From a virus: a DNA stretch of 30,730 bases. The notes beneath the pieces are model-generated. The model saw only the letters and a list, made by a program, of their open reading frames with translations, was not told the DNA's origin and made no database searches. The position numbers and the translations under genes are program-made. Location: positions 1 to 30,730 of IMG/VR virus record IMGVR_UViG_3300027770_000190. One strand, 5' to 3'. The stretch's first letter is position 1, and each line of letters starts with the position of its first letter. Of the stretch, positions 9,404 to 30,730 are shown piece by piece.

Positions 9404-9416
9404 TTCGCTATATTTG
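9385..9416 (+). promoter_or_regulatory. Promoter, Bacteroidota type, before the 9.4-kb RNA cassette
   Basis: TTTG at 9385-9388 and TATATTTG at 9409-9416 with exactly 20 nt between, a perfect match. The expected transcript start is around 9421-9424. The first gene downstream (9525) is about 100 bases away, unlike the other promoters here, leaving room for a structured leader or a short RNA. Confidence 0.8.
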
Positions 9417-9524: not shown

Positions 9525-10037
9525 ATGGGAACACAACAAATAAAATGGACGGCAATTGCGGAATGCAACGGCATCTACTACATCTCGAATCACGGGCAAG
9601 TCAAGAGCTACAAGTATGGGAAAGAACGAATTTTGAAACGAGTAATAACTCCTAAAGGTTATTGGAAAATTGATATTTGGCTCAATGGCAAGTCAAGATC
9701 AATAACAATTCACAAATTGGTGGCATTAGCATTTGTATCAAATCCTGACAATAAACCACAAGTAAACCACAAAGATGGAGACAAATTAAATAATGACTTT
9801 ACAAACCTTGAATGGGTGACTCCTCAGGAAAATATACAACACGCTTGGCAAAATGGTTTATGCGAGTCGTCAAGATTGGCAATAATTCAATACCAATCAA
9901 AACCCGTAATTGACTGTACAACTGGGAAAAAATATAATTCATTAAAATTGGCTTGTATTGATATTGGTGAACCATATAGTCGGCATCAAAAAAGACATTT
10001 CATAAAATCAAAACTTCAAAGATTTTTTTACTTATGA
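9525..10037 (+). CDS. HNH homing endonuclease (NUMOD4-HNH type)
   Basis: A 170-residue nuclease. An N-terminal NUMOD4-like part ('WTAIAECNGIYYISNHGQVKS', 8-28) is followed by the HNH core: 'IHKLVALAFVSNPDN' (62-76), 'VNHKDGDKLNND' (80-91) and 'NLEWVTPQENIQHA' (94-107). The last 45 residues (from 'KPVIDCTTGKKYNSL') resemble a NUMOD1-type DNA-binding tail. Such enzymes cut a target site and promote copying of their own gene. It sits between two small genes and the replication operon, behind the hairpin/T-tract leader, and overlaps the next gene by 4 nt. A paralogue of similar plan is at 29442. Confidence 0.88.
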   Translation: MGTQQIKWTAIAECNGIYYISNHGQVKSYKYGKERILKRVITPKGYWKIDIWLNGKSRSITIHKLVALAFVSNPDNKPQVNHKDGDKLNNDFTNLEWVTPQENIQHAWQNGLCESSRLAIIQYQSKPVIDCTTGKKYNSLKLACIDIGEPYSRHQKRHFIKSKLQRFFYL

Positions 10038-14896: not shown

Positions 14897-15636
14897 GGGT
14901 TATACAATCCGGACATCTTGGTGATTTGATCTATTCACTTACGGCAACCAAGCGAGTTGCGGAGTTGCACGGTGCGGTAGATTTCCACATCGGATTCCGT
15001 GAGCAGAATACTGTTTTAGGTCATCCAAGCGGAGGGTACTGTATGAACTTAAAATCGTACGAATACATTAAACCCTTGCTTGAGCATCAATTGTACATTA
15101 AAAGCGTTGAGATGAACTCACACCCCGACATTGGATATAACTTCGACAAGTTCAGGAATCACGGATTGAATCTATCTGCTGGTGATTTAAGGCGGAATCA
15201 CTTTCTTGTGTACCCCGAATTAATGTCTGACCTTCACGAACCTTGCATTGAAGCGACTGAACCTATCCCGTACTTTGCGGACAAGATACTTTTGAACTTC
15301 ACATCTCGTTATCGCAATTATGATATCAACTATTTCCCACTCAAGGAACACAAGTGCGTTTTCTTTGGATACGAAGATGAGTACATTGCATTCACCGATA
15401 GATGGCAGTTGGATTGTGAACTTCTCAAATGCCAAGATGCTTTGATGTTGGCAACTATTATTGGCAGTTCAAAGGCATTCATCGGAAATCAGTCAAGCAC
15501 CTACGCCATTGCAGAACAAATGAAGGTAAAACGATTGCTTGAGATATGCGTTCACTCACCGAATGTCATCCCCATCAACAATGGCTTTGACTATGTCACG
15601 AATCAAGCGTTCAATCACCTACTTAAAACTCTATGA
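14893..15636 (+). CDS. GT-B fold glycosyltransferase, heptosyltransferase-like
   Basis: A 247-residue protein. 'MRVIQSGHLGDLIYSLTATKRVAEL' (1-25) resembles the N-terminal nucleotide-sugar fold of ADP-heptose transferases (GT9), and 'IIGSSKAFIGNQSSTYAIAEQMKVKRLLE' (about 193-221) resembles their C-terminal donor-binding end. The family normally has about 320-350 residues, so this is shortened, and the donor is not known. With the next gene it could modify host surface glycan, capsid or DNA bases. Overlaps neighbours by 4 nt. Confidence 0.7.
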   Translation: MRVIQSGHLGDLIYSLTATKRVAELHGAVDFHIGFREQNTVLGHPSGGYCMNLKSYEYIKPLLEHQLYIKSVEMNSHPDIGYNFDKFRNHGLNLSAGDLRRNHFLVYPELMSDLHEPCIEATEPIPYFADKILLNFTSRYRNYDINYFPLKEHKCVFFGYEDEYIAFTDRWQLDCELLKCQDALMLATIIGSSKAFIGNQSSTYAIAEQMKVKRLLEICVHSPNVIPINNGFDYVTNQAFNHLLKTL

Positions 15637-16622
15637 AATTACTGATATTAACTGACGGAATGAATGGTGTAGTTTACCACCGATTATTCACGCCACATCT
15701 TCGGATGCAAATTGACGGACAAGCGGATGTCAGCGTTTGCCAATCACAAGAAGAATGGCTCACCCTTGACTATCGTGCATTTGATGTGATCATATTCTCA
15801 CGATGGCTTGGTTCAAAGCATTATGATGTGTTGAAGAAGATTGCAGATTCAGGCACTCCCTATGTTGTGGACATTGATGACTATTGGGTTCTCCCAAAAT
15901 ACAACCCGGCATATTGGGCATATCGCAAAGGAATCAAGCAATGCGTGAAGGATGCTATCAATTACGCTGATGCGGTGACAACCACAACTCTGCACCTTGC
16001 AAGTGAGATTCGCTTGATCAATGAGAATGTTGTCATAGCATCCAACTGTCTTGACTACACACACAAGCAATGGGAAGCCGAACCTATGGAACGAACCGAC
16101 AAAGTAAAGGTCGGATGGGTTGGTGGAGTAACTCACGAAGAGGATTTGAAGTTGATTGCTGACCAAATCAAAGGACTTGACATTGAGTTCTACATTTGCG
16201 GTTATACACCAGGAGAGATTTGGAATCGGATTGCCAAGAGTATGCCTGATGCAAAGATAGTTGAAGGTACATCGGTGTTTGAATATGGTGAGGTGTATCG
16301 TCACTTTGACATCGTGGTTGCACCGTTGCAAGACAACAAGTTCAACAACTGCAAATCTGAGCTGAAGATAGTTGAGGCGAGTGCGTATAAGAAGCCAATC
16401 ATTTGTTCTGATGTCTATCCGTATATGTACCACTTAGGAAACGATGGGGTGTTGTTTGCAGAACGCAACGATTGGAAACTTGCCATCCAAAAACTGATTG
16501 ATGTTGGTCATTCGGTTCGTCAGTCAATGGGATTGAGCAACTACGACTACTGCCAAAAGCATCACAACCTTGAACTACACAATTTGACAAGATTGCAGTT
16601 ATACAAATCGTTGTGCAAATAA
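15633..16622 (+). CDS. GT4-like glycosyltransferase
   Basis: A 329-residue GT-B fold enzyme. The N-terminal domain begins 'MKLLILTDGMNGVVYHRLF' and has 'VDIDDYWVLP' (about 89-98). The C-terminal domain shows 'VGWVGGVTHEEDL' (about 160-172), and the donor-binding motif with 'CKSELKIVEASAYKKPIICSD' (about 241-261), whose E-x7-E-type acidic residues are typical of family 4. It lies between the small and large terminase genes. Acceptor and donor cannot be read. It overlaps the terminase gene by 10 nt. Confidence 0.8.
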   Translation: MKLLILTDGMNGVVYHRLFTPHLRMQIDGQADVSVCQSQEEWLTLDYRAFDVIIFSRWLGSKHYDVLKKIADSGTPYVVDIDDYWVLPKYNPAYWAYRKGIKQCVKDAINYADAVTTTTLHLASEIRLINENVVIASNCLDYTHKQWEAEPMERTDKVKVGWVGGVTHEEDLKLIADQIKGLDIEFYICGYTPGEIWNRIAKSMPDAKIVEGTSVFEYGEVYRHFDIVVAPLQDNKFNNCKSELKIVEASAYKKPIICSDVYPYMYHLGNDGVLFAERNDWKLAIQKLIDVGHSVRQSMGLSNYDYCQKHHNLELHNLTRLQLYKSLCK

Positions 16623-19018: not shown

Positions 19019-20152
19019 GTGGCTCTATCAATCACCCAAAAACCCGATTCGTATCATCCCGGTTTCAATGACACAAACTTTGTCATTACGGAATCATCAG
19101 GTGGTATTTACACAAAGGACAATTTCAAGTTCATTGCCGATGTCAAAGTAGCAACAACATCAATTGCCAAACTCAAAGCACCAATCTATTTTGGAAGTAC
19201 AAACAAGGGGGTGTTCAACATTGGTCGCATAATGGAAAGTTATGTCAGCAATAATTGGAACTTTGCAGATACATCACCAAGCGGTTGTGTGGATTCCTTC
19301 AGCGATTATTCGGTTGAATTTGGGTATGAGTACTCACCATCTGCAACGGGAACAATCACGGAGTATTTGAACTTGACTTCCGCAACTGGAACGATTTGGA
19401 ATGCTGCCTTGAATCCGTTTGATTTGGTCACTTACGCACAAGCTCAATATCTTGCCACATCATCAAGTGCGAAGTTCTTGACAAATGTCAGAACGAGATA
19501 CATCCATCGCACACAAAAGGATTGGTTGTATGCTTTGAAAGGTGATGCCACAAGCGTTGTAATTACATACTCCGATGCAAGTACCCAAACATTTACATTG
19601 CCTTCGTCTAAGGTCGTGAGAATACCCGTGGGAAGCCAATTGACAATACCCGGTGGAGCAACCTTCTTTGATGTCGTGTTGAAACTTGGTGGAACTGCCA
19701 AATCAGAAACCTATCGCATCAACATAAAAGACGAGTGTAGTAAATACGAAACAACGGATATTTTCTTTATGAACCGATTGGGAGGATTTGATTCCTTCCG
19801 TTTCAATATGGTTCGCAGAGATACATTTGAGGTGGAGAGAAAGCAATTCCAATCCAATCCGTACACACTCGGTGCAACATACGGTTATGCCACAAGCGTT
19901 CGCACTCGTTCAAACTACCATACAAAAGCAAGTCAGAAAATCAAGTTAAATTCCAATTGGATTGATGACACGGAATCCGCTTGGTTGAAAGATCTGATTG
20001 AATCACCAGTTGTTTATATGTATGACGGCACTTTGTATGCAGTCAACATTGACAATGCAACCTACGAGCAAAAGAAGGGTGTGCAAGACAAGATGTTCAA
20101 CCTTGAGCTTGACATCACCTTGTCGTTTGCTGACAAATCTCAACGCTTATGA
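19019..20152 (+). CDS. Distal tail / baseplate-like protein
   Basis: A 377-residue, strand-rich protein starting at GTG. The pattern 'ITQKPDSYHPGFNDTNFVI' at the start and 'CSKYETTDIFFMNRLGGFDSFRFNMVRRDTFEVERKQF' around 239-275 are familiar from a tail protein conserved in Bacteroidota phages, where it is the first of the tail-tip group. It is likely part of the distal tail or adhesion device. It is the first gene behind the promoter at 18984 and overlaps the next gene by 4 nt. Confidence 0.7.
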   Translation: MALSITQKPDSYHPGFNDTNFVITESSGGIYTKDNFKFIADVKVATTSIAKLKAPIYFGSTNKGVFNIGRIMESYVSNNWNFADTSPSGCVDSFSDYSVEFGYEYSPSATGTITEYLNLTSATGTIWNAALNPFDLVTYAQAQYLATSSSAKFLTNVRTRYIHRTQKDWLYALKGDATSVVITYSDASTQTFTLPSSKVVRIPVGSQLTIPGGATFFDVVLKLGGTAKSETYRINIKDECSKYETTDIFFMNRLGGFDSFRFNMVRRDTFEVERKQFQSNPYTLGATYGYATSVRTRSNYHTKASQKIKLNSNWIDDTESAWLKDLIESPVVYMYDGTLYAVNIDNATYEQKKGVQDKMFNLELDITLSFADKSQRL

Positions 20153-22995
20153 TCCAGTTATATGTTGGGATTCCTTCTTCGTATTTAGAGCAAATCGAAG
20201 CAGCGTTTGTTGGTCGTACCAATGATGCGTTTGTGGAAGGAGGCGATTGTCGGATTGATAAACTTGAGGCACTTGGTGGAACTTTTGTCAATCGCAGATT
20301 GGATTTGTATGACAACTTTGATCTTCTTATCACCAAGTCAATCGCAGACATCAAGTCACCCGAATCAAGGTCAAGCGAATACACAAAGACAGTTCTTATT
20401 CCTGGTACTGCTGCCAACAACAAATTGTTTGGTCACATCTTTGAGATTGAGCAAAACATTCAAGGATCAACGCAGTTTGCACCCGACTTCAATCCGAATA
20501 AGAAAGCGGATGTGGTGGTCTTGCTTGACGAGGTTGAGCAGTTGCGTGGATTCATCAGGTTGATTCAAATCAATGTGCTGGATTCAACTCAGATTGAATA
20601 CGAGTGTTCACTACACGGCAAGACGGCTGACTTATTTACCAACATTGCAGACCTAAAATTAAACCAATTAGATTTCACCGAGTACAATCATACATTGTCA
20701 AGTGGCAACATCATTGATTCTTGGGCAACATCCATCTACAAAAACGGAAACACTCAAGCGTTCTCACTTGGAGAAGGTTATGTGTATGCGATGATTGACA
20801 AAGGTCATCCCACAAACATTGCAGTTTGGGAAACCAAACAGTTCACTCCTTGTCTTTATGCTAAAACGGTTATTGACAAGATATTCACAAACTCGGGATT
20901 TAGTTATACCAATGATTCGTACTTCAATAGCACGGATTTCAAGAGGTTAGTAATGCCGAACCCGTCGCCATTGAGTGCAGATGCTTCCGTTTTGGAAGGT
21001 CGAAGGTTCAAAGCTTCACGCATAACCACAAGTCAATCTCTTGATTTGAACTCCGTTTTGATATTTCAGAACGATTCAACGAGTGGCAATTATGACAATG
21101 GCAATAACTACAACAACACAACTGGACAATACACACTTCCCGTTGGTGGTGACTATGCGTTTGATTTGGACTTGTTGATGTTGTATCAATCAACCGGATA
21201 TGTTCCAGTTGTACCCGCAGAAATATGGTTAGTGTTTGGCTTGTATGTCAATGGTGTTTTGAAAGACACATTGACTGTCACACCAAACATCGGATCAAAT
21301 ACCAATAGACAATTAACTTTATTTCCATTCACCTTGCTACAAGGTTCGGTTGTCGACATTCGCTTGGTTCAGGTGTATGACGATGCAAACAAATACAACT
21401 TGACCAACGCACAATTCTCATTGGACTTGTTGGCAACTTCTAACATTGAAAGCAATCAAAGTGCCTACACATTTGGCGTGGGGGAAACGGTTAATTTCAG
21501 TATGTTCTTAAACTCGGAGGTCAAGCAAAGCGAAATCTTTATGAGCTTTGTGAAGATGTTCAACTTGTACATTGAACCAACCAAAGACCAACCAAAAGTT
21601 CTGCGGATTGTTCCCCGTGATGACTTCTACAATGGCAGTCAAGTTGATTGGACTAAAAAATTAGATTATTCTCAAGCATTGGATATTATTCCGATGGGTG
21701 ATCTTGATGCAAACCCTTATGTATTTGCTTATAAGGAAGGCAAGGATGAAACCAATGTCATCTATCAACAAAACTATCAAACAACATACGGCTCACGCAC
21801 CTACAAAATTGACAATGATTTTGTAAAAAACGAAAAGAAGATTGACATTGCTTTCTCGCCAACACAAATCAAATCATACAATTCTCAAAAGAATTTTGTC
21901 TTGTCCCAAATGCCAAATAGTCAAGATGGCGATTTGAGAATAATGTATTATAGTGGTCTTGTGGATGGCGTGAATTGGCGGTTGTGGAATCAATACGCTG
22001 GTGTTGGGTTAGATTATTCATATCGCAACCAATTGCCTTTGACATTGCATTATAATTCAATAACCAATCCAACCTTTGACATACTGTTTGGTATGCCGAG
22101 AGAAATCGGTATTGGTGCTGGTTACAAATACGCCAATGTGAATCTTGTCAATAAATTTTACTATAAGTTTTTGACGGAAATCACAAGTAAAAACTCTAAG
22201 TTGGTCAGGGCATATTTTAGAATTACTCCAAACGATTGGTTGAACTTGTCTTTTGCTGATGCGTATTTCTTTGAAGGACAGTATTGGAGATTGAACAAGG
22301 TTGAAGATTACAACCCAATAACCGATGGCGTGTATTTGTGTGAGTTCTTATTGGCTCAGTTTGTCGAACCAGCAACCATCACAACAAAGACAATTGGTGC
22401 GGGAACTGCTCAAGGTCAACAAGGTGAAACGCTTGGAGATATTTATCCCGGGGGGAATAATCCAATTAAACCAGGAATCAAAGGTGTAAACATTGGACTT
22501 GGACAAGGTGGTGCTGGTGTTATTCAAGGTGACAACATCGTGCAGAACCAAAACACAGTAGATGCGTTTTCAGTCATTTCTTCAAACACAACATTCCAAG
22601 CGGGAACGGATGGAAGTGGTGCGATATTGTGCGATGACTTCACAGTCACCAAACCTGATACACTCTACATCGGCAATTACGAGATGTATCCAAACTATTT
22701 GAGTGGTGGTGCAGTTACAACCGTATCAGCAAACTACTCGGCAACGAAAGACGATTGGTTGATAATAGCAAGTACAACTGCCGGGAATTTTACAATTACT
22801 CTACCTGATCCAACTGGACTAAGTGGTAAAACTTGGATTATCAAAAAGCCATTAGCCGGACATCAAGTGACCATTGACACGGCAACTGCTGCACAAATAG
22901 ACGGCAGCGACACGCACACACAAACAGCACATCATTCATACGATGTCATCACTACTGATGGCGTTCAATTTTACATAATAGCAGAAGGACACTAA
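20149..22995 (+). CDS. Large tail-tip / hub protein with fibre-like C-terminus
   Basis: A 948-residue protein. The first 500 residues ('MIQLYVGIPSSYLEQIEAAF', 'DFDLLITKSIADIKSPESRSSEYTKT' region) fit the long tail proteins found beside the distal tail gene in Bacteroidota phages. Around 744-800 there is a glycine- and glutamine-rich linker ('GAGTAQGQQGETLGDIYPGG', 'GLGQGGAGVIQGDN'). The last 90 residues ('ATKDDWLIIASTTAGNFTITLPDP', 'GKTWIIKKPLAGHQVTIDT') form a repeat-like beta domain that I have seen at the end of phage fibre proteins and which may trimerise or bind receptor. One-base overlap (TAATG) with the tape measure gene. Confidence 0.65.
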   Translation: MIQLYVGIPSSYLEQIEAAFVGRTNDAFVEGGDCRIDKLEALGGTFVNRRLDLYDNFDLLITKSIADIKSPESRSSEYTKTVLIPGTAANNKLFGHIFEIEQNIQGSTQFAPDFNPNKKADVVVLLDEVEQLRGFIRLIQINVLDSTQIEYECSLHGKTADLFTNIADLKLNQLDFTEYNHTLSSGNIIDSWATSIYKNGNTQAFSLGEGYVYAMIDKGHPTNIAVWETKQFTPCLYAKTVIDKIFTNSGFSYTNDSYFNSTDFKRLVMPNPSPLSADASVLEGRRFKASRITTSQSLDLNSVLIFQNDSTSGNYDNGNNYNNTTGQYTLPVGGDYAFDLDLLMLYQSTGYVPVVPAEIWLVFGLYVNGVLKDTLTVTPNIGSNTNRQLTLFPFTLLQGSVVDIRLVQVYDDANKYNLTNAQFSLDLLATSNIESNQSAYTFGVGETVNFSMFLNSEVKQSEIFMSFVKMFNLYIEPTKDQPKVLRIVPRDDFYNGSQVDWTKKLDYSQALDIIPMGDLDANPYVFAYKEGKDETNVIYQQNYQTTYGSRTYKIDNDFVKNEKKIDIAFSPTQIKSYNSQKNFVLSQMPNSQDGDLRIMYYSGLVDGVNWRLWNQYAGVGLDYSYRNQLPLTLHYNSITNPTFDILFGMPREIGIGAGYKYANVNLVNKFYYKFLTEITSKNSKLVRAYFRITPNDWLNLSFADAYFFEGQYWRLNKVEDYNPITDGVYLCEFLLAQFVEPATITTKTIGAGTAQGQQGETLGDIYPGGNNPIKPGIKGVNIGLGQGGAGVIQGDNIVQNQNTVDAFSVISSNTTFQAGTDGSGAILCDDFTVTKPDTLYIGNYEMYPNYLSGGAVTTVSANYSATKDDWLIIASTTAGNFTITLPDPTGLSGKTWIIKKPLAGHQVTIDTATAAQIDGSDTHTQTAHHSYDVITTDGVQFYIIAEGH

Positions 22996-28066: not shown

Positions 28067-28213
28067 ATGATAGGCATCGGAATTGGCACTCGAAATCGTC
28101 TATACAAAGGTCAAGCGTGGGATATCGTACAAGGTTACAAATCACGCATTACAACTGACGGAGGATACTATGAAGGTATCTCTTGCTTACTTAATAAATT
28201 AAACAACTTATGA
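28067..28213 (+). CDS. Small hypothetical protein (48 aa)
   Basis: An ATG at 28067 opens a 48-residue frame (MIGIGIGTRN at its start, ending LLNKLNNL), with 1 nt between it and the upstream stop and an ATGA overlap with the fibre gene, as expected for a real gene in a tight operon. Gly/Ile-rich start, then 'GQAWDIVQGYKSRIT'. No function known. Confidence 0.55.
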   Translation: MIGIGIGTRNRLYKGQAWDIVQGYKSRITTDGGYYEGISCLLNKLNNL

Positions 28214-29400
28214 GCAATCTACTAAGTCAAGCGTCACTCGTGATGATTCCGAGTGGCTACAAAGAAGATGTTGTTTACTCACCTATTCCCACAACGGGTG
28301 CGGGTGATTTATCATTCACACGAGCATCCAACGGAACCCGAATAAATAGTGCGGGGTTGGTGGAGGTTACGCCGTGGAATATGTTAGAGTATTCTGAGCA
28401 GTTTAGTAATGCGTATTGGTATGCGGAAGCGGGGAATACGGTTACAAGCAATTCAACAACCGCACCAAACGGAACTTTGACCGCAGACACAATAACGGCA
28501 ACAAGTGGCAATGAAATTAATTTACACAATTTTGCATCGTTTACAATTACTGCAAATACTTACACTTTATCACATTACTTAAAAAGTAACGGAACAAATT
28601 TAATTCAAACATATATTTATAATATATCAACGGGATTTGCCGCGTTGGGTGAAATTAATTTTGCGAATGGGACTTATACGGCTTCGATTGGCACGGGTTC
28701 AATAGAAAATGTGGGCAATGGTTGGTATCGTGTTAGTTTAACTGCAAGTTTGGCAAGTGGTAGCATCACGACGGGAGTTTTTACAACATCAACTACGGGA
28801 ACGCGTAGTGCATTTGTATGGGGCGCACAATTAAACATCGGCTCAACCGCCAAACCCTATTTCCCCACTACCGACCGCTTAAATGTACCACGCTTAACTT
28901 ATCAAAATGGCGGGGGCGGGTGTCCGAGTTTGTTGTTGGAGAAGCAGTCGACGAATTTGTGTTTGTGGAGTGAGCAGTTTGATAATGCGGCTTGGAGTAC
29001 TGCGGGGTCAACAGTTACTGCAAATAATACTACAAGCCCAGACGGAACTCAAAATGCCGATTTGTTAACTTTCAATGTAACTTCTTACCCGTCAATTTAT
29101 CAAGCCGTAACAACAACAAACGGCGCAACATATACTGCAAGTATTTACGCAAAAAAAGGTAATCAAAACTTTTTGGGGTTGGAAATCCGTGGCTCAAGTT
29201 CTACAACAGACACAGTTTTTAACCTTAATACGGGAGTAGTTGTAAGCGGAACGGGGACAATTGAAAATGTTGGAAACGGATGGTATAGGTGTTCAATCAC
29301 AAAGGCAGCCAATAGCACATCAACTCTTTTAATTATTGGCCGTGGAGATACCGCTGCGATTGGAGATACTGTATATTTATGGGGCGCACAATTTGAATAA
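28210..29400 (+). CDS. Tail fibre, N-terminal part with two related domains (gene split)
   Basis: A 396-residue protein that begins 'MSNLLSQASLVMIPSGYKED' and 'YSPIPTTGAGDLSFTRASNGTRINSAGLVE', a known start of Bacteroidota phage fibres. Two related sandwich domains follow: 59-208 ('YSEQFSNAYW' to 'FVWGAQL') and 252-396 ('WSEQFDNAAW' to 'LWGAQFE'), each with 'IENVGNGWYR'. These look like carbohydrate-binding modules. The first domain is followed by 'GSTAKPYFPTTDR'; the second stops at GAQFE, and its expected continuation 'GSYATSYISTTSA' is found at 29971, after a homing endonuclease. So this gene was probably longer before the insertion. Confidence 0.8.
   Translation: MSNLLSQASLVMIPSGYKEDVVYSPIPTTGAGDLSFTRASNGTRINSAGLVEVTPWNMLEYSEQFSNAYWYAEAGNTVTSNSTTAPNGTLTADTITATSGNEINLHNFASFTITANTYTLSHYLKSNGTNLIQTYIYNISTGFAALGEINFANGTYTASIGTGSIENVGNGWYRVSLTASLASGSITTGVFTTSTTGTRSAFVWGAQLNIGSTAKPYFPTTDRLNVPRLTYQNGGGGCPSLLLEKQSTNLCLWSEQFDNAAWSTAGSTVTANNTTSPDGTQNADLLTFNVTSYPSIYQAVTTTNGATYTASIYAKKGNQNFLGLEIRGSSSTTDTVFNLNTGVVVSGTGTIENVGNGWYRCSITKAANSTSTLLIIGRGDTAAIGDTVYLWGAQFE
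28384..28833 (+). repeat. Fibre domain copy 1
   Basis: Protein-level repeat with 28963-29397: both start (Y/W)SEQFxNAxW, carry IENVGNGWYR near the end and finish WGAQ. DNA identity is low, so the duplication is old. Confidence 0.75.
28963..29397 (+). repeat. Fibre domain copy 2
   Basis: Second copy of the sandwich domain; ends exactly where the insertion lies. Confidence 0.75.
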
Positions 29401-29429
29401 TGTAGTATAATTATACCAACGAAATAGCG

Positions 29430-29437
29430 TATATTTG
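29430..29437 (+). promoter_or_regulatory. -7 element before the inserted endonuclease
   Basis: TATATTTG, perfect -7 match, ends four bases before the ATG at 29442. No TTTG at the matching upstream spacing. It may let the endonuclease be made apart from the fibre operon. Confidence 0.45.
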
Positions 29438-29441
29438 TACT

Positions 29442-29966
29442 ATGGAAATATGGAAATTTGTAAACGAAAAATACGAAATAAGTAACACGGGAAAATTGAG
29501 ACACGGTGAATATATATTGAAAGGCAAAGTCGGTGCAAACGGATATGTTGAGTATTCAATGAGTATGGGCAATTATCAGCGCAAATATGAAATGGCGCAT
29601 AGATTAGTTGCAAAAGCGTTTATTGAGAACCCAGAGAACAAAGCGGAAGTAAACCACAAAGATTGCAACCGATTGAATAATGAAGTTGCAAATTTAGAAT
29701 GGTGTACCCATAGCGAGAATATACGGCATTCAAGGGCATTGAACCGATACCCAAAGGAAATCAAAAAGCGTACTATTGAAACACTACAAAAAGACCGTGA
29801 GGCAAAACAACACAAAATGAAACCAGTAATTGACGAAATTGGGAATGTATACGAAACTGCAAAATCGGCAGCGTACGCCCACGGATTAAGTTCACACGCC
29901 GTGCGTCTTGCAATCAAGAACGGCAACAAGTCAGCAAACAAAAAATGGTCATACTTAAACAATTAA
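29442..29966 (+). CDS. HNH homing endonuclease with NUMOD4 and NUMOD1 parts
   Basis: A 174-residue nuclease. 'EIWKFVNEKYEISNTGKLR' (2-20) is NUMOD4-like; 'AHRLVAKAFIENPENK' (52-67), 'VNHKDCNRLNNE' (70-81) and 'NLEWCTHSENIRHS' (84-97) make the HNH core. 'KPVIDEIGNVYETAKSAA' to 'VRLAIKNG' (127-161) is a NUMOD1 DNA-binding helix region. It has the same plan as the protein at 9525, but is distinct in sequence. Such genes invade conserved sites by cutting the empty allele; here the invaded site is inside the fibre gene. Confidence 0.9.
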   Translation: MEIWKFVNEKYEISNTGKLRHGEYILKGKVGANGYVEYSMSMGNYQRKYEMAHRLVAKAFIENPENKAEVNHKDCNRLNNEVANLEWCTHSENIRHSRALNRYPKEIKKRTIETLQKDREAKQHKMKPVIDEIGNVYETAKSAAYAHGLSSHAVRLAIKNGNKSANKKWSYLNN

Positions 29967-29970
29967 GGAA

Positions 29971-30492
29971 ATGGGAAGTTATGCAACGAGTTATATAAGT
30001 ACCACATCAGCAAGTGCCACAAGGGTGGCGGATGCTTGTAGCAAGACGGGGATAAGTAGTTTGATTGGGCAGACGGAGGGGGTGGTATTTGTTGATTTTG
30101 ATTTTAATGGAAATTATTCAGGTGGTGGGATTATACCAATTTCTTTAAATGGTGCTGGGGGAAATGAGGTATATATTTGGATTCAAACAAGTGGTTTGCT
30201 TTTATGCGAACTGGCTAATATAGGAGTTGTCCAAGCATCAATCACGGGAGCAATTGGGGCAGTTGGTCGCAAAAAAATTGCATTTGCATACAAACAAAAT
30301 GATTTTGCAGTTTATATGAATGGAACATTAATTGGAACGGACTCAAGCGGAACAATTCCCACTTTATCTGTATTGACAGTTGGTAAGTATTTTGCAAATA
30401 ATACCTATGATTTAAACGCGGGAATCAACCAAGCTATTTTATTCCCAACCCGACTAACAAACGCAGAACTTGCATCCTTAACAACTATCTAA
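29971..30492 (+). CDS. Tail fibre, C-terminal part (LamG-like), separated by the insertion
   Basis: A 173-residue protein. It begins 'MGSYATSYISTTSASATRVADACSKTGISSLIGQTEG', which in uninterrupted fibres of this group follows 'GAQLE'. The rest is a jelly-roll, LamG/concanavalin-like domain ('GVVFVDFDFNG', 'NDFAVYMNGTLIGTD', 'INQAILFPTRLTNAELASL'). It should bind receptor sugars. It starts at an ATG with AAGGA four bases upstream, one of the few Shine-Dalgarno-like sites here, so it may be made as a separate chain. The join with the first part would be non-covalent. Confidence 0.75.
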   Translation: MGSYATSYISTTSASATRVADACSKTGISSLIGQTEGVVFVDFDFNGNYSGGGIIPISLNGAGGNEVYIWIQTSGLLLCELANIGVVQASITGAIGAVGRKKIAFAYKQNDFAVYMNGTLIGTDSSGTIPTLSVLTVGKYFANNTYDLNAGINQAILFPTRLTNAELASLTTI

Positions 30493-30730
30493 ATGAAGAC
30501 CTTCGCTAAATTTGAGTTCACCCCTACACAATGGGCAACCCTTCGCAAGTTAATAGAGCAAACCACAACCACACCAGACGGGGCGAAAGTCCAAAGTTGG
30601 AAAGATTGTGCAGTTGTTGAGTTGGGATTTATTGTAATTACCCCCGCCGTCCTAAAAGATATGGAGGTAGTAACACCAGCAGTCCTATCAAAGAAATGGG
30701 CGGTTGATATTCTATTTTATGCAGAAGTAC
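30493..30730 (+). CDS. Small tail/fibre-operon protein, 5' part of a gene spanning the junction
   Basis: Starts ATG at 30493, directly after the stop of the fibre part. It opens 'MKTFAKFEFTPTQWATLRKLIEQ' and runs to the window end without a stop. Joined to bases 91-239 it makes a 128-residue protein ending 'CIIPTNETPS'. In this copy the polymorphic block reads VLKDMEVV; in the left copy VMDGMEVV. 'TPAVL' occurs twice, 12 residues apart, within it. Unknown function. Confidence 0.75.
   Translation, partial: MKTFAKFEFTPTQWATLRKLIEQTTTTPDGAKVQSWKDCAVVELGFIVITPAVLKDMEVVTPAVLSKKWAVDILFYAEV
30641..30730. repeat. Terminal direct repeat, right copy
   Basis: Matches bases 1-90 except for seven differences within 30651-30660. 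Circularisation point of the genome. Confidence 0.85.

Follow-up and report, generated by a model that had tools for sequence, protein, structure and literature searches.

In Aeromonas phage Aeh1 the homing endonuclease gene (HEG) mobE is inserted in nrdA, giving a ribonucleotide reductase of the 'genes-in-pieces' kind (Friedrich et al. 2007, cited after PMC2988022 and PMC10448857), and the two products of the split gene form an active enzyme (PMC2988022). In T4, mobA is found in the topoisomerase genes 39/60 (PMC2988022), and HEGs have also been placed at boundaries of genetic exchange between phages, the so-called 'HEG islands' (PMC10448857). Fibres made of more than one chain are on record as well, in that T5-like lateral fibres occur as one or several chains, which are not described as HEG-split. 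Here we find that a 573-nt element with an HNH gene of the homing type interrupts one continuous tail-fibre reading frame in a viral genome (Table 1), and our reading of the whole locus, to which we assign a probability of roughly 0.8, is that of a free-standing HNH homing element specialised on the fibre linker, with the fibre made as two proteins. The window, by which we mean the whole stretch of DNA analysed (the complete virus record of 30,730 bases), has identical 70-base stretches at 21-90 and 30661-30730, and contig L003, which is 99.9-100% identical to it, runs across the joined ends, so that we are dealing with a closed circular genome of about 30.6 kb. Its -7-like promoter word and the relation of its fibre to that of a flavobacterial phage suggest a Bacteroidota host. 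Elsewhere in the window a glycosyltransferase-like gene (phrog_7162, 15633-16622) adjoins the large terminase, and a 948-aa protein at 20149-22995 with a weak C1q-like stretch (E 0.0025) is a possible second receptor-binding or tail protein.

Table 1. Features of the interrupted tail-fibre locus (positions in the window).
Feature	Position	Strand	Remarks
Tail-fibre N-part, 396 aa	28210-29400	+	ends WGAQFE-stop; phrog_5939 positions 394-583, E 3e-44
Inserted element, 573 nt	29398-29970	+	same length and same codon in all occupied loci; edges uncertain by up to 3 nt
TAA stop directly after the fibre GAA codon, supplied by the element	29398-29400	+	
TATATTTG, Bacteroidota-type -7 promoter-like word, 4 bases upstream of the HNH start	29430-29437	+	in all occupied loci; putative promoter function
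HNH homing endonuclease gene, 174 aa	29442-29966	+	PF13392 E 2e-9; phrog_59 E 9e-36
ATG opening the C-part, 4 nt past the HNH stop	29971-29973	+	other codons in empty alleles
Tail-fibre C-part, 173 aa	29971-30492	+	starts MGSYATSYIS; phrog_5939 positions 584-762, E 1e-16

The two fibre parts lie in the same frame on the same (+) strand, and the 573 nt measured between the GAA codon (ending at 29397) and the ATG (starting at 29971) agree with the about 573 bases first estimated for the insert. The N-part is laid out as a conserved start, a variable domain 1, a conserved linker 1 and a variable beta-sandwich domain 2, and the C-part holds a linker and a concanavalin-A-like / CBM40-like lectin domain. 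Over 28210-29060 and in related loci, near-identical start and linker DNA surrounds strongly different domains in unlike phages, a three-module mosaic. The profile of the tail protein phrog_5939 runs gap-free over both parts with the junction at 583|584, and since it spans them from end to end, they are one protein elsewhere. The sequence-only reading, that the insertion of an HNH gene had split a tail fibre, is largely borne out, as continuous homologues form the majority and 15 other contigs have the element at the same codon; relatives are thus neither always split nor lacking in continuous homologues, which are the commonest form. In our domain-2 search 5 of 80 kept loci were occupied, continuous fibres being the rule, and the cultured Nonlabens phage P12024S has a continuous 1,668-bp gene annotated as similar to tail-fibre protein.

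A comparison with relatives lacking the insert had been proposed, and it returned continuous fibres in L037, L082 and L182. The first two have backbones about 91-94% identical to the window (DNA), and the empty second linker of L037 reads WGCQFE-A-GSYATSYISTTSASATRVAD. In L182, whose C-part is 92% identical (aa) to that of the occupied L013, the linker is intact and reads WGAQLE-A-SSYATSLIETTSS. An exact empty-site pattern with the same flanks matched three contigs, L157, L158 and L159, among which L157 (the same contig as L083) is an independent empty fibre and L159 a continuous one. The suggestion that only some genomes carry the insert holds to the extent that the close relatives L037 and L082 are empty; their fibre modules, however, differ too, and in a search for a near-identical genome with an empty allele the sole near-identical contig found, L003, was also occupied. 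An uninterrupted control had also been recognised within the first domain of the same gene, where GAQLNIGSTAKPYFPTTDR is indeed unbroken, but this linker, although similar in kind, is not the one interrupted, and the empty second linkers of relatives are much better controls.

Occupied loci share a fixed order: the GAR codon of the fibre and a TAA are followed by a leader of 41 nt that ends in TATATTTGTA(C/G)T, and then come the HNH gene with its stop, a four-base spacer, the ATG and the C-part. GAR and ATG are 573 nt apart in 16/16 loci, including the most diverged, L017. Since empty alleles have GCG, GAA, GTT or other codons at the position of the ATG, this start codon came with the element; the two fibre halves do have their own start and stop codons, as had been stated, but the C-part has not inherited its ATG from the uninterrupted gene. 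The claim that the insert brings its own -7 element also stands, as TATATTTG fits the TAnnTTTG consensus, and no good -33 element was recognisable upstream of the HNH gene. Four copies of the 10-base form TATATTTGTA are present on the + strand of the window (5367, 9409, 12396 and 29430) and none on the - strand, and these are likely -7 promoter words. The HNH protein consists of a NUMOD4-like N-end (a weak match, E 0.019, below the Pfam cut-off), an HNH_3 core at residues 51-93 (PF13392, 37.3 bits vs a cut-off of 24.8) and a C-terminal putative DNA-binding region; its catalytic-type residues H53, N71-H72 and N79-N80 are invariant, and between the window and L004 the gene has a dS of 0.154 and a dN of 0.005, pointing to strong constraint on the protein. 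By its sequence features taken together the gene is to be classed as a free-standing homing endonuclease gene, and its precise insertion at one site, which is empty in relatives, is typical of such genes. A second free-standing HNH gene (9525-10037), 46% identical to that of the fibre over residues 8-98, adjoins a primosomal-like gene and a DnaB-like helicase and has its own TATATTTGTA upstream at 9409.

Where the break falls in the protein was read from the model of an uninterrupted fragment from L080 (mean pLDDT 80, pTM only 0.49, making the relative placement of domains uncertain). Its final domain-2 strand spans residues 151-160 and the insertion site coincides with the end of that strand, residue 160; a linker modelled at low confidence (167-185) leads on to the following domain. 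In fold comparisons the uninterrupted two-domain fragment was closest to the tail fibres of Pseudomonas phages Pa193 and E217 (PDB 9b45 and 8env). The window C-part is modelled with pLDDT >90 for 100 of 173 residues, and well beyond the first ~30, and matches concanavalin-A-like sugar-binding folds, the first being the CBM40 of a Ruminococcus gnavus sialidase. The models thus place the break after the last beta-sandwich strand, ahead of a predicted flexible linker and lectin-like domain, and since each part keeps whole domains, what is lost would be the covalent attachment of a probable sugar-binding tip.

It might be argued that the gene is broken, in other words that the C-part is untranslated or unused, that the phage makes do with the truncated N-part or with a different receptor-binding protein, and that occupied genomes are transient. 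We regard this as unlikely, even though the 948-aa protein mentioned above could be such a receptor-binding protein and occupied alleles are in the minority (the 5/80 kept loci of the domain-2 search), because the C-parts that are not cut by a contig end are all open, with an ATG, conserved ends and a length of 168-174 codons, and because L017, with the most diverged element (HNH 76-80% identical), retains the layout of stop, 4 nt and ATG despite differing in the four bases. No other early stops were seen at the site in the loci examined. Moreover, L005 and L009 have C-parts with 95% identity and elements that agree fully over the last ~96 nt, so that the C-parts probably diverged after the split, and their 19 substitutions include no stop or frameshift. 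The corresponding values (dS 0.07, dN 0.028, dN/dS 0.4) come from a single dN/dS comparison, the only one for C-parts that have diverged since the split; it is weak and lends mild support to the C-part being in use.

The 15 other occupied contigs, all of them metagenomic, encode HNH proteins 80-100% identical to that of the window, with 76-100% identity among all pairs of occupied loci. They represent about 10 further distinct fibres (~11 with the window) in a sample biased by most having been found with the HNH gene, and the fibre domains beside their elements are mostly only 31-57% identical, as measured in pairwise alignments of short domains. Pairs with HNH proteins 97-100% identical have domains 2 and C-parts that are mostly 33-57% identical; for the window and L004 the figures are 99% (HNH), 42% (domain 2) and 50% (C-part), and L004 and L005 both show 99% HNH identity to the window next to flanking fibre domains of only 39-50%. 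DNA similarity of the window to L004, L005 and L006 is likewise high only over about 29375-30100, which comprises the element and the DNA close to it on either side, with the high-similarity stretch at roughly 29378-30035 in L004 (97%) and L005 (96%), and most occupied phages have structural genes or a backbone unlike the window's. Between L182 and the occupied L014 similarity starts about 30 nt into the C-part and the bases beside the element differ, as expected if the element came with a short donor flank. Over the first ~12 nt of the right flank occupied sites are more uniform (0.91/0.85) than empty ones (0.45/0.64), which fits co-conversion, although a target preference could give the same pattern. 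The distant HNH relatives L018-L031 (31-48% identical) had no fibre linker motif within 1.2 kb on either side, and in the bacterial genomes searched the HNH genes were all distant ones from Bacteroidota MAGs (31-38% identical). On these comparisons of sequence, the element evidently moves relative to both fibre and phage backbone. That it has instead been stationary in its lineage while the fibre domains around it were swapped, with no recent homing, seems to us quite improbable: fibre domains do get exchanged (L012/L013; L005/L009), but HNH genes 98-99% identical are found in phages that have no recognisable relationship in their structural genes (window/L005), backbones about 91-94% identical lack the element (L037, L082), and HNH relationships do not track the backbone.

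A group I or similar intron that contains the HNH gene and is spliced out, leaving the fibre as one chain, would agree with the frequent presence of HNH genes in phage group I introns and with an insert length that is a multiple of three and leaves both parts in one frame; yet the HNH gene takes up 525 of the 573 nt, leaving only 48 nt where a ribozyme core would usually take up about 200 nt or more, and an own stop together with a new ATG, at a 4-nt spacing kept in all 15 other occupied loci, would be pointless if spliced. Since there is no intron core, the insert is very unlikely to be excised from the RNA, and a group I or other RNA element was rejected on the grounds of too little non-coding DNA and of an Rfam search of the insert with no match up to E 5. 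An intein was rejected as well, there being a stop codon at the left edge and an HNH gene in another frame. The locus has the makings of a gene in pieces, with an insertion in a coding region, no intron and two parts that keep open frames.

For the homing element specialised on the fibre linker we propose the following course of events. The HNH endonuclease would target conserved DNA of the linker between the last two fibre domains (WGAQxE / GSYATSYI), as the position of the element suggests, and would nick or cut the empty linker of a co-infecting phage, whereupon donor-templated repair may copy the 573-nt element in together with some tens of flanking bases. The element's stop would end the upstream chain and its ATG after the HNH stop would restart the downstream one, presumably by coupled translation of the C-part, such that the fibre is made as two proteins, split at the flexible linker, which would then reassemble. 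The insertion would be tolerated owing to the location of this split between two independently folding domains. A switch in receptor use, as had been suggested, would be a hypothetical consequence of the insertion.

The element sits where fibre modules are exchanged. L012 and L013 have domain 2 and the HNH element in common and not domain 1 or the C-part, L009 and L015 have domain 2 in common and not the C-part, and L005 and L009 have the C-part in common and not domain 2. The element is itself recombinant (PHI 0.279 vs 0.364, 5,000 permutations, 98 informative sites, p=0.0002), and that of L009 is a mosaic of L006-like, L015-like and L005-like pieces, the partners changing in step with the flanks. 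Considering that it is located at the module-exchange joint and adds 573 bp of shared DNA, the element may act as a crossover point between fibres. One can hypothesise that it causes the exchange, but it need not, since fibre modules recombine in phages without the element too. A further step, speculative and in our opinion doubtful, would be to see in it a dedicated fibre parasite and mobile joint at once, where linker cutting and 573 bp of shared DNA drive the exchange of receptor-binding tips between unrelated phages and a two-chain fibre mixes tips without a covalent junction.

Fast-changing fibres set phage host range and would be expected to make poor homing targets because their sequence is not conserved. 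By using the interdomain linker, the one unchanging stretch, the element can invade many different fibres. The natural pairs of split and unsplit fibres allow a test of whether the tip needs covalent attachment, and the locus is a natural setting for asking if homing endonucleases accelerate the exchange of host-recognition domains.

In the papers searched we came across no tail-fibre gene described as split by an HNH gene, and whereas HEG-made genes in pieces are known for viral enzymes, their repeated use on a receptor-binding fibre appears to be new. The fibres of phrog_5939 and of Pa193 and E217, the continuous homologue and the best fold matches, are uninterrupted, unlike the window fibre. 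As in HEG islands, the element marks a recombination boundary; there, however, HEGs flank exchanged regions of >10 kb, and here a single element lies inside one gene, at the joint of exchangeable fibre domains. T4 mobA resembles it in that an HNH insertion goes along with the division of a gene into two coding regions, and differs in concerning an enzyme core gene in a single lineage. With mobE in nrdA of Aeh1 the fibre locus shares a free-standing HNH gene that breaks a coding region with no splicing intron involved, so that there are two reading frames and their products would have to act jointly. The Aeh1 case, however, is an enzyme in one phage with its function tested, whereas the present one, known from sequence, is a receptor-binding fibre broken in the linker between two domains, and the codon is the same in ~11 different fibres of unlike phages.
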